Shown here one piece after another: positions 26,829 through 36,927 of a stretch of DNA of 37,432 bases. Under the pieces are notes generated by a model. It was not told the DNA's origin. It made no database searches and worked only from the letters and a program-made list of their open reading frames with translations. The position numbers and the translations under genes were made by a program. The DNA is from Oscillospiraceae bacterium (GTDB lineage Bacteria; Bacillota; Clostridia; Oscillospirales; Oscillospiraceae): positions 1 through 37,432 of the forward strand of contig JAFTVV010000001.1 of assembly GCA_017465625.1 (NCBI GenBank), in the 5' to 3' direction. Every line of letters begins with the position of its first letter. The stretch's first letter is position 1.

Positions 26829-28205
26829 ATGCAGTACCGTATTGAACACGATTCTATGGGCGAAATTCAGGTCCCTGCAGACCGCTACTGGGGCGCACAA
26901 ACCCAGCGTTCCTGCCAAAATTTCCCCATTGGTGTGGGCATTGAAACCATGCCCAGAGAGATTACCCACGCCTTCGGCATTCTCAAACGTGCCGCGGCAC
27001 AGGCCAACCATCTCCTCCGTCCCGAAAAAATGACCGCAGAAAAGCTCAGTGCCATTACACGCGCCTGCGACGAGATTATTTCCGGCAGTCTCAATGACCA
27101 TTTCCCTCTGGTGGTATGGCAGACAGGCTCCGGCACGCAATCCAATATGAACGCCAACGAAGTCATTGCAAACCGCGGCAACGCCATTGCAGGTGCAAAA
27201 CTGCTGCACCCCAATGACGATGTCAATATGAGCCAGTCCTCCAACGACACCTTCCCCACCGCCATGCACATTGCGGCAGTGCTCAGCTTAGAAGACAAGG
27301 TCATTCCTGCCATTGAGCTGCTGATTTCCGCTTTCCAACGTCTGGAGACAGAAAATGAGGGAATTGTCAAATCCGGCAGAACCCATCTGCAGGATGCCAC
27401 CCCCATTTCTTTCTCTCAGGAGATTTCCGGCTGGAGAAGCTCCTTAGAACGGGATCTGCAACTGATCCGCATTTCCTTAGACCCCCTGAAGGAGCTGGCA
27501 CTGGGCGGCACTGCCGTAGGCACAGGGCTCAATGCCCCCAAGGGCTTTGGTGCCCAGGTTGCCCAAGAGGTTTCCACCCTCACCGGCAAGACCTTCCGCA
27601 CCGCAGAAAATAAATTCCACGCCCTGACCTCCAAGGATGAGCTGGTATTTGCCCACGGTGCACTAAAGGCATTGGCCGGTGACCTGATGAAAATTGCCAA
27701 CGATGTGCGCTGGCTATCATCCGGCCCCCGGAACGGTTTGGGAGAAATTACCATCCCTGAAAACGAACCCGGCTCTTCCATTATGCCCGGCAAGGTCAAC
27801 CCCACCCAGTGCGAAGCGGTGACCATGGTTGCGGTGCAGGTGATGGGCAACGATGCGGCTATAGGCATTGCTTCCAGTCAGGGTAACTTCCAGCTGAACG
27901 TCTTTATGCCGGTGCTGATTTACAATTTCCTGCAATCGGCACGCCTGCTGGCAGAGGCTATGGTCTCTTTCCACGACCACTGTGTTGTGGGCATCCGTGC
28001 CAATCGGGAGAAGATGGCGCACAACCTGCACAACTCCCTGATGCTGGTTACTGCCCTGAATCCCTACATCGGCTACGAAAATGCCGCAAAAACCGCTAAG
28101 CTGGCGTATAAAGAAAACATTTCTCTGAAAGAAGCCTGTGTCCGACTGGGCTTTCTGACAGCAGAACGGTTTGACGAAGTGTTCCACCCTGAGCAAATGA
28201 TTTGA
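26829..28205 (+). CDS. fumC: Fumarate hydratase, class II
   Basis: This 458-aa homotetrameric cytoplasmic enzyme interconverts malate and fumarate without an Fe-S cluster. The superfamily signature GSSIMPGKVNPTQCE is present near residue 316, along with TGSGTQSNMNANEVIANR (about 98-115), SQSSNDTFPTAMH (about 136-148), GRTHLQDATPIS and the late NPYIGYENAAKTAK. Length is exactly that of FumC. AAAGGAG lies upstream of the ATG. As first gene of a ten-gene operon ending in fumarate reductase subunits, it most likely works in the reductive direction, making fumarate from malate as electron acceptor. The hdrB gene follows 11 bases later. Confidence 0.95.
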   Translation: MQYRIEHDSMGEIQVPADRYWGAQTQRSCQNFPIGVGIETMPREITHAFGILKRAAAQANHLLRPEKMTAEKLSAITRACDEIISGSLNDHFPLVVWQTGSGTQSNMNANEVIANRGNAIAGAKLLHPNDDVNMSQSSNDTFPTAMHIAAVLSLEDKVIPAIELLISAFQRLETENEGIVKSGRTHLQDATPISFSQEISGWRSSLERDLQLIRISLDPLKELALGGTAVGTGLNAPKGFGAQVAQEVSTLTGKTFRTAENKFHALTSKDELVFAHGALKALAGDLMKIANDVRWLSSGPRNGLGEITIPENEPGSSIMPGKVNPTQCEAVTMVAVQVMGNDAAIGIASSQGNFQLNVFMPVLIYNFLQSARLLAEAMVSFHDHCVVGIRANREKMAHNLHNSLMLVTALNPYIGYENAAKTAKLAYKENISLKEACVRLGFLTAERFDEVFHPEQMI

Positions 28206-28216
28206 AGGTGATCATG

Positions 28217-29008
28217 ATGACATATTCATATTTCCCCGGCTGTACATTAAAAACAAAAGGCAAGGATCTGGACATTTGGGGCAGAGCCTCCGCAGAGGCA
28301 CTGGGTTTCCATCTGCAGGAGCTGGACCAGTGGCAGTGCTGTGGCGCAGTATACCCTATGGCCAAGGACGAGATTGCCACCCGTCTTTCCTCTGTGCGCG
28401 CCCTGATGGCCGCAGGCGAGGCAGGTCAGGAGCTGGTCACCCTTTGTTCTGCCTGCCATCACGTCATCAAACGGGTCAATCGGGATATGCAAACCGATGA
28501 GACTATTCGGGATCGGGTCAGCCGCTATTTGGGCTTACAGACCCCCTATGCAGGTGAAACCACGGTACTGCACTATTTGGAGGTACTACGGGATCGGATT
28601 GGCTTTGACAACCTGAAGCAGAAGGTGGTAAATCCCCTCACCGGCCGCAAAATCGGTGCGTATTACGGCTGTATGCTGCTGCGCCCTGCCAGTGAAATGG
28701 GCTTTGACAACCCGGAAAATCCCACCATTTTGGAAGACTTTATCCGCGCCATTGGCGCAGAGCCGGTGGTATACGCACGGCGCAACGAGTGCTGTGGCGG
28801 CTACTGCACCATCAAAAGCAAGGACTATGCAAGAAAGCAGGTGGATGCCATTATGGAAAACGCCCGTGCCTGCGGTGCGCAGGAGCTGATTACCGCCTGT
28901 CCCCTGTGCCTGTATAACCTGACCGAAAATGCAACCGACGGTCTGCCTGTAGCCTACTTTACCCAACTTTTGGCCGAGGCGCTGGGCGTAAAGGAGGAGC
29001 AAAAATGA
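28217..29008 (+). CDS. hdrB: Heterodisulfide reductase subunit B-like protein (two CCG domains)
   Basis: This 263-aa soluble subunit carries the active-site module of heterodisulfide reductases. Both cysteine-rich CCG motifs that hold non-cubane [4Fe-4S] clusters are complete. The first uses Cys9 (YFPGC), QCCG (about 41-42) and CSAC (about 78-81); the second uses YYGC (about 152), NECCGG (about 191) and CPLC (about 231). In methanogens this site reduces CoM-S-S-CoB; Clostridia lack those thiols, so the partner disulfide or relay role is open. ATG 28217 is preferred over 28214 on spacing from GAAGGTG. It overlaps hdrC by 4 bases (ATGA). Confidence 0.9.
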   Translation: MTYSYFPGCTLKTKGKDLDIWGRASAEALGFHLQELDQWQCCGAVYPMAKDEIATRLSSVRALMAAGEAGQELVTLCSACHHVIKRVNRDMQTDETIRDRVSRYLGLQTPYAGETTVLHYLEVLRDRIGFDNLKQKVVNPLTGRKIGAYYGCMLLRPASEMGFDNPENPTILEDFIRAIGAEPVVYARRNECCGGYCTIKSKDYARKQVDAIMENARACGAQELITACPLCLYNLTENATDGLPVAYFTQLLAEALGVKEEQK

Positions 29009-35307: not shown

Positions 35308-35319
35308 GGAGGCGGTACG

Positions 35320-36927
35320 ATGTATCAGGACGCATTGATGCAGCAATCCATCAAAAAAGTGGAAGCTGCCCGTGAAGCGAATATGAAGCTGGATCCCCGA
35401 CGGATGACCGCCGAGGAAAAAGAGCTTCTGCTGAAAACCTATCACCCGGACTATCGGGAGGATCAGTTTGAGCATTTGGTGTTCGGACCCAATGCCGGTC
35501 AGAAAGTGCCCAAGGAGCTGGCAAAGCTTCTGCAGGCAAAATCCCGTCTGTCCGGCAAAACCATCGACCTGACCGCACCGGATTATGATACCGATGTGCT
35601 CATCATCGGTGCAGGCGGTGCAGGCACTTCTGCCGCTATTGAGGCGCACGAAAACGGTGCAAAGGTGATGATCGTCACCAAGCTTCGTATGGGCGATGCC
35701 AACACCATGATGGCAGAGGGCGGTATTCAGGCCGCCGATAAGCCCGGTGACAGTCCTGCCCAGCACTTTCTGGATGCCTACGGCGGCGGTCACTTTGCGG
35801 CACAGAAAGACCTGCTTTACAAGCTGGTGACCGAAGCACCGGAGGCCATTTTATGGCTGTCGGAATTGGGTGTGGAATTTGACAAGACTGCCGACGGCAC
35901 CATGGTCACCACCCACGGCGGCGGTACTTCCCGTAAAAGAATGCACGCCGCCAAGGATTATTCCGGTGCGGAAATTATGCGCACCCTCCGTGACGAGGTA
36001 CTGAGCCGCAAAATCCCCGTACTGGACTTCACCTCCGCCATCGAGCTGATTAAAGACGAACAAGGTCGTTGTGCCGGTGCGGTGCTGATGAATATGGAGA
36101 CCAAGGAACTGCTGATCGCCCGTGCCAAGACGGTCATTTTGGCCACCGGCGGTGCAGGCCGTCTCCACTATCAGGGCTTCCCCACCTCCAACCACTACGG
36201 TGCTACCGCCGACGGCCTGATTTTGGCATACCGTGCCGGTGCACGTCTGCTGTACCCCGACACCTTGCAATACCACCCCACCGGTGCGGCTTTCCCGGCG
36301 CAGATCTACGGCGCATTGGTGACGGAAAAGGTGCGCTCTGTGGGCGCAATGCTGGTCAACGCCAACGGTGAGGTATTTATGAATCCTCTTGAAACCCGTG
36401 ACGTTTCCGCCGCTTCCATTATCCGTGAATGTTCCGATCGGGGCAACGGTGTGGCAACACCGGAGGGCTTTGCCGTTTGGCTGGATACCCCGATGATCGA
36501 ATTAAAGCACGGCGCAGGTACGATTGAAAAGCGGATTCCTGCCATGATGAGAATGTTTGCTAAGCACGGCATTGATATTCGGAAAGAGCCCATTTTGATT
36601 TACCCCACCTTGCACTATCAAAACGGCGGTCTGAAAATCTCCGACGACACCCAAACCGACATTGAAAATCTCTACGCCGCCGGTGAGGTGGTTGGCGGCA
36701 TCCACGGCCGTAACCGTCTGATGGGCAACAGTCTGCTGGATATCATCGTATTCGGCAGAAATGCAGGCAAATACGCCTCCGAAAAGGCAAAAACCGTGGA
36801 AAACGGCGTGCTGACCCTGGCCCATATTGCCGATTTTGAGCAGCAACGGGCACAGGCCGGTGTTACAGACGATGTGGTTTCTCCCCAACTGTTGCCGGAT
36901 TATACCCGTAAGGTCAATGAAAAATAA
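35320..36927 (+). CDS. frdA: Fumarate reductase flavoprotein subunit, soluble type
   Basis: This 535-aa FAD subunit reduces fumarate to succinate. After an unusual 85-residue charged N-terminal extension come the FAD motif VLIIGAGGAGTSAAIEA (about 93-109), ANTMMAEGGIQAAD (about 127-140), the YHPTG active-site segment (about 317-321), a TLHYQNGG segment (about 429-436) and HGRNRLMGNSLLDIIVFGR (about 462-480). The His that binds FAD covalently in Sdh/Frd (SHTxAAQGG) is Asn here, as in L-aspartate oxidase and soluble fumarate reductases. L-aspartate oxidase is an alternative, but the paired frdB and fumC, and absence of nadA/nadC, favour fumarate reductase. It is the last gene of the operon. Confidence 0.87.
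   Translation: MYQDALMQQSIKKVEAAREANMKLDPRRMTAEEKELLLKTYHPDYREDQFEHLVFGPNAGQKVPKELAKLLQAKSRLSGKTIDLTAPDYDTDVLIIGAGGAGTSAAIEAHENGAKVMIVTKLRMGDANTMMAEGGIQAADKPGDSPAQHFLDAYGGGHFAAQKDLLYKLVTEAPEAILWLSELGVEFDKTADGTMVTTHGGGTSRKRMHAAKDYSGAEIMRTLRDEVLSRKIPVLDFTSAIELIKDEQGRCAGAVLMNMETKELLIARAKTVILATGGAGRLHYQGFPTSNHYGATADGLILAYRAGARLLYPDTLQYHPTGAAFPAQIYGALVTEKVRSVGAMLVNANGEVFMNPLETRDVSAASIIRECSDRGNGVATPEGFAVWLDTPMIELKHGAGTIEKRIPAMMRMFAKHGIDIRKEPILIYPTLHYQNGGLKISDDTQTDIENLYAAGEVVGGIHGRNRLMGNSLLDIIVFGRNAGKYASEKAKTVENGVLTLAHIADFEQQRAQAGVTDDVVSPQLLPDYTRKVNEK

Follow-up and report, generated by a model that had tools for sequence, protein, structure and literature searches.

The window analysed here, a 37,432-nt stretch that makes up the whole of contig JAFTVV010000001.1 of an Oscillospiraceae bacterium (assembly GCA_017465625.1; genome of 1.70 Mb, 80% complete), carries an operon, fumC-hdrBCA-flxDCBA-frdBA, that probably encodes a fumarase together with a soluble nine-subunit oxidoreductase acting on NADH (reduced nicotinamide adenine dinucleotide), ferredoxin and fumarate. 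The last nine genes, hdrBCA-flxDCBA-frdBA, are a fixed unit across many Clostridia of many genera. The ten genes lie on the + strand at 26829-36927, separated by no more than 22 bp or overlapping slightly (from fumC to frdA: +8, -4, +10, -10, -16, +1, -4, +22 and +12 bp), as a first-pass annotation of this DNA had described; starts were picked by hand as ATG, preferring a Shine-Dalgarno-like stretch where present. Pfam, NCBIfam and PDB sequence searches gave the following identities, which agree with the gene content and the Hdr and Flx assignments proposed earlier and bear out that the operon has no membrane subunit gene (FAD, flavin adenine dinucleotide).

26829-28205, + strand: fumC, class II fumarase (TIGR00979, 714.6 bits, above cut-off)
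28214-29008, + strand: hdrB, two CCG domains with the ten cysteines of two CCG motifs (PF02754; PDB HdrB matches)
29005-29376, + strand: hdrC, dicluster protein with two [4Fe-4S] motifs (profile matches, conserved motifs)
29387-31375, + strand: hdrA, FAD and several [4Fe-4S] motifs (PDB 5odc_A, E 2e-208, residues 3-660)
31366-31806, + strand: flxD, FlpD/MvhD family (PF02662, E 5.6e-55)
31791-32762, + strand: flxC, Fe-S protein (top PDB matches are formate dehydrogenase beta subunits from Hdr-containing complexes)
32764-33786, + strand: flxB, Fe-S protein resembling sulfhydrogenase beta / AsrA (profile and PDB searches)
33783-34610, + strand: flxA, FAD/NAD(P)H oxidoreductase with a [2Fe-2S] motif (PF00175, PF00970, PF10418; motifs conserved)
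34633-35307, + strand: frdB, [2Fe-2S] domain followed by an HdrC-like domain with two [4Fe-4S] clusters (profile searches, HdrC-like fold)
35320-36927, + strand: frdA, fumarate reductase flavoprotein (PF00890, E 8.2e-79, from residue 92)

Gene order speaks for a functional unit. A search of genome contigs yielded 480 relatives; in all of the best 80, the operon genes that are present stand in order on one strand. All ten are there in 56, and in the others only genes of the upstream end are lacking. When this set is combined with a draw of genomes from the class, the order hdrB-hdrC-hdrA-flxD-flxC-flxB-flxA-frdB-frdA on one strand recurs in all 99 loci whose sequence reaches 7.3 kb or more upstream of frdA, and the arrangement is therefore more than chance, although two releases of one catalogue supplied the loci and may include an organism twice (L062 and L115 look alike), so that the 99 are not all independent. 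The remaining 33 of the 132 loci are too short upstream. Excluded from the 132 are L165 and L168, which have a different gene order and of which the first duplicates part of the second, and L166, which together with L167 represents two pieces of one genome. One class genome outside the count, G325, has frdBA ahead of hdrBCA-flxDCBA. The conserved adjacency of hdrA, flxA and frdA that the first-pass annotation had suggested seeking in genomes is thus found as part of the nine-gene order. A fumarase adjoins the unit in 78 of the 87 class loci that extend 10 kb or more upstream, and fumC stands upstream in 69 of them. Class I fumarase genes (PF05681, PF05683) lie within 3.5 kb downstream of frdA in nine of the 18 fumC-less loci (L150 and L162, for example); apart from two loci taken up below, the remaining ones are covered by less than 3.4 kb of downstream sequence. 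In 69 of 118 relatives, an Asp-Al_Ex permease, of a family that includes succinate exporters, lies no more than 600 bp past frdA; in the window no transporter gene follows frdA in 36928-37432, up to the contig end. The most similar FrdA proteins come mostly from metagenome-assembled genomes of gut Oscillospiraceae. One locus labelled Bacteroidaceae (L005) also has the operon, with a FrdA 86% identical to that of the window, and is likely a mislabelled bin.

Co-occurrence points the same way. In the class draw of 391 genomes, FrdA is found in 54 (at least 59% identity, the next matches reaching only 38%) and FlpD in 59; both occur in 53, FlpD alone in six and neither in 331, odds that are raised by shared descent. 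The sole genome with FrdA only, G130, has a contig that ends inside flxC. The tie between Frd and Hdr-Flx that had been proposed from the window is thereby upheld, by 53 of 54 FrdA carriers and by linkage in 99 of 99 loci. Among 40 relatives, FrdA occurs in 11 and FlpD in 10, in the same genomes except for a single one of 58% completeness. Of 25 genomes in the genus, eight have FrdA, and even some of at least 97% completeness lack it, so the genus has seen gains or losses of the operon. None of the 40 relatives, the 11 FrdA carriers included, has MenD, MqnC or DsrC above cut-off; rnfC is above cut-off in 52 of 60 relatives and in seven of those 11 carriers.

Residues of the individual subunits are conserved as well. 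The ten CCG cysteines of HdrB are invariant across 57 sequences. In FrdA, which bears an N-terminal extension of ~88 residues, H319, E336, R339, R360, H432 and R466, which we take to have catalytic roles, are invariant in 48 sequences aligned to E. coli FrdA, and the histidine that binds FAD covalently in the E. coli protein is replaced by Asn128, likewise invariant in the 48. The folds closest to FrdA are fumarate reductases, flavocytochrome c3 and succinate dehydrogenases. FrdB retains its cluster-binding residues, and its second half (residues 94-180) is HdrC-like in fold; the label frdB given earlier therefore stands for an Fe-S subunit, not for a standard FrdB. This protein of 224 amino acids has no CCG domain and no PF02754 match at E 0.001. 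The NCBIfam TfrB profile matches FrdB, HdrC and HdrB of the operon, each over different parts; in methanogens TfrB is a single protein. The FrdA alignment comprised the window and 47 of 88 usable rows from L114-L207, and the FrdB alignment the window and 48 of 90 rows, both selected for spread. We excluded from the alignments any frame that is broken by internal stops or has no ATG close to where the start was expected (interrupted frames were flagged in frdA four times, hdrB four times and flxC once), leaving 166 usable rows for FrdA and 164 for FrdB.

We infer NADH as the donor, bifurcation to ferredoxin, direct transfer from HdrB to FrdB, assembly into one complex and the direction of the reaction. 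FumC would dehydrate malate to fumarate. FlxA, from its sequence the candidate entry point for NADH, would accept the hydride, and electrons would pass through FlxB, FlxC and FlxD to the FAD of HdrA, which may split each pair, one electron going to ferredoxin and the other to HdrC; such a division of NADH electrons between ferredoxin and fumarate would follow, by analogy, the known behaviour of Hdr-type enzymes. From HdrC the electrons would reach the noncubane clusters of HdrB, then FrdB, with its two [4Fe-4S] and one [2Fe-2S] clusters, and finally the FAD of FrdA, where fumarate would be reduced to succinate. Quinone and a membrane subunit would be dispensable for this pathway.

The closest known system is the "succinate operon" of Pseudoclostridium thermosuccinogenes, which comprises a fumarate hydratase, seven Hdr/Flx loci and two fumarate reductase loci (PMC7282089). 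Its authors link the fumarate reductase to ferredoxin reduction; the operon is up ~4-fold under CO2 limitation, with significance not reached for every subunit, and succinate is lost under added H2, which they regard as fitting ferredoxin coupling (PMC7282089). Compared by gene list, block order and gene set are alike in the window and in P. thermosuccinogenes, whose operon has an extra 3' gene, a potential succinate transporter (PMC7282089); in the window the terminator follows frdA with no such gene between them. The gene set and the bifurcation proposal were thus already in print in 2019-2020 for one thermophile (PMC7282089). In tubeworm symbionts and Thioflavicoccus, flxABCD-hdrABC genes are mixed with tfrAB and korABCD, and a direct hand-over of electrons has been suggested; these clusters resemble the window in placing Hdr-Flx among fumarate reductase genes and differ in belonging to Gammaproteobacteria and to a reverse tricarboxylic acid cycle cluster (PMC6315080). 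The window operon is one more case of the P. thermosuccinogenes-type system, and what is added here is its status as a fixed unit in many Clostridia.

Other known systems resemble the operon in part. FlxABCD-HdrABC was reportedly described by Ramos et al. in 2015 as an NADH dehydrogenase/heterodisulfide reductase; all seven subunits are also contiguous in the window, where, unlike in that system, they are joined to fumarase and FrdAB, and DsrC is above cut-off in 0 of 40 relatives. In NCBIfam, FrdA scores highest against methanogen TfrA (350 bits, far below the cut-off of 718), and TfrB gives partial matches to HdrB, HdrC and FrdB, also far below its cut-off of 385; TfrB has a C-terminal CCG domain, whereas FrdB of the window has none. 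For 8-methylmenaquinol:fumarate reductase, the CCG subunit SdhE is the best NCBIfam match of HdrB (148.4 bits against a cut-off of 500) and the SdhA model gives 227.8 bits, below its cut-off of 1100; its difference from the window operon is seen also in the 0 of 40 counts for MenD and MqnC. Quinol-type fumarate reductases have the covalent-FAD histidine where FrdA here has Asn128.

Beyond the class, FrdAB keeps varied company. Among 398 phylum genomes, 38 others have the same FrdA type (51-63% identity), and Hdr genes adjoin frdBA in 20 of 39 phylum loci examined: full Hdr-Flx in five (L185, L186, L193, L198, L199), a whole or partial unit of hdrC, hdrB, two HdrA-like and FlxD- and FlxC-like genes in ten, hdrC-hdrB only in four, and a large HdrA-like protein in one (L189). 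In L174 and nine similar loci the hdrC-hdrB-hdrA-hdrA-like unit, whole or in part, lies immediately 5' of frdBA, and the second HdrA-like protein of L174 has 1092 amino acids. Pfam-checked neighbours at Hdr-less loci include malic enzyme (L190, L191), malate dehydrogenase (L197) and pyruvate carboxylase (L170), further Hdr-less loci being grouped with these by gene size and order only. At L173, L204, L205 and L207, also Hdr-less, FrdAB of the same family adjoins cytochrome genes (NapC/NirT or cytochrome b561), which suggests a membrane-linked use of the module, and some relatives in the phylum adjoin BCCT or PrpD genes. In a quick tree of 61 FrdA sequences, with topologies compared by the approximately unbiased (AU) test, the Hdr-Flx-first and Frd-first groups do not form a single clade (AU p 3e-7), nor is the Hdr-Flx-first group alone a strict clade (AU p 0.007), a pyruvate-carboxylase group being nested inside it; Hdr-Flx has therefore been linked to FrdAB at least twice, or lost several times.

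It is also conceivable, if unlikely, that Hdr-Flx and FrdAB are two enzymes communicating through a diffusible thiol/disulfide, with FrdAB reoxidising the thiols in the manner of TfrAB with coenzyme M (CoM-SH) and coenzyme B (CoB-SH). Both CCG motifs of HdrB are complete and there is similarity to the TfrB profile; however, the CCG part of TfrB is the one thought to oxidise thiols, and the short FrdB has no CCG match. DsrC, a known bacterial protein thiol partner, is lacking above cut-off in all 40 relatives in a search limited to this partner, and the fixed nine-gene unit better suits a complex. The finding of FrdAB without adjacent Hdr/Flx in other Firmicutes might instead indicate two activities that are co-regulated and uncoupled, Flx-Hdr reducing ferredoxin or another acceptor and FrdAB being fed by ferredoxin or flavodoxin. 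The presence of FlpD in 53 of 54 FrdA carriers and the adjacency of Hdr-Flx and FrdAB in two separate FrdA lineages make this quite unlikely.

Since bifurcating enzymes can be reversible, the complex could in principle run backwards as a confurcating succinate dehydrogenase, forming fumarate and NADH from succinate and reduced ferredoxin; loss of covalent FAD is linked to loss of succinate oxidation, and the invariant asparagine, together with the permease that so often follows frdA, renders this direction very improbable. An unsaturated acid other than fumarate as acceptor, for which the breadth of the flavoprotein family and the BCCT or PrpD neighbours might speak, is hardly to be expected given the adjoining fumarase in most class loci, the invariant fumarate reductase catalytic set and the nearest folds.

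A soluble complex with electron transfer from HdrB to FrdB is thus favoured because of the fixed linkage, the co-occurrence, the HdrC-like FrdB, the intact HdrB and the lack of quinone and DsrC markers. Several observations weigh against it. HdrB keeps the features of disulfide-reducing HdrB proteins, and some probability is therefore left to a thiol mediator. FrdAB needs no adjacent Hdr-Flx, as 19 of the 39 phylum loci show no Hdr/Flx by frdBA, some of them being short upstream (L187, ~0.1 kb). Two loci with ample flanks, L010 and L028, have no fumarase adjoining the nine-gene unit, and the genome of the window (G000), at 80% completeness, has no rnfC above cut-off, no [FeFe] hydrogenase and no Asp-Al_Ex permease. 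In P. thermosuccinogenes the effect of Na2S was opposite to that of H2, which the authors call confusing (PMC7282089). Finally, no assay of an enzyme with this gene set was found in openly accessible literature; to this extent the earlier statement that no such enzyme is characterised stands, whereas the gene set and the proposal were not new.

We tentatively extend the idea of an HdrB-fed FrdAB to the phylum, at somewhat less than even confidence: FrdAB may be a plug-in terminal module, with FrdB docking on HdrB so that the noncubane clusters become a relay within a nine-protein bifurcating enzyme, and with input units that vary among Firmicutes; fumarate respiration in gut Clostridia would then proceed without quinone. 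With the same reserve, the input units might be Hdr-Flx (in two FrdA lineages), HdrCB with two HdrA-like proteins, HdrCB alone, and cytochromes.

Two signals flank the operon.

26711-26739, + strand: promoter-like site, TTGACT-17-TATAAT (11/12 consensus matches)
37036-37059, + strand: terminator-like hairpin of 10 pairs, 8 of them G-C, followed by a T-run, 3' of frdA

The promoter agrees with the consensus site reported at 26711 by the first-pass annotation; its support comes only from its place and quality and not from site counts, since promoter matches across the region show no excess (9 against 8.3 in shuffles). The "first terminator at 37036" holds for strong hairpins only: hairpin/T-run matches total 23 against 15.4 in shuffles, with weaker ones falling within genes too, and a second strong hairpin with a T-run lies upstream of the operon at 26628-26657. 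Just 5' of this upstream terminator, 25727-26620 (+) encodes a protein with DUF7507/DUF11-like matches. Past the operon, close to the contig end, copies of ACACAGGGGACGGTTC occur in both orientations at 36955-37189, and a perfect 17-bp inverted repeat is located at 37108-37150. A DcuC-family carrier (PF03606; NCBIfam match YfcC, far below cut-off) is encoded at 4853-6310 (+) of the same contig.

If the proposed reaction takes place, fermenting Clostridia that lack quinones could conserve energy from fumarate reduction as reduced ferredoxin, from which Rnf could build an ion gradient, and flavin-based bifurcation would gain fumarate as a further high-potential acceptor. HdrB would then be a case in which noncubane clusters feed a flavoprotein, and the ATP (adenosine triphosphate) yield and succinate output assigned to carriers of the operon would change. 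The question can be tested directly, since the nine-gene unit is fixed in many genera.

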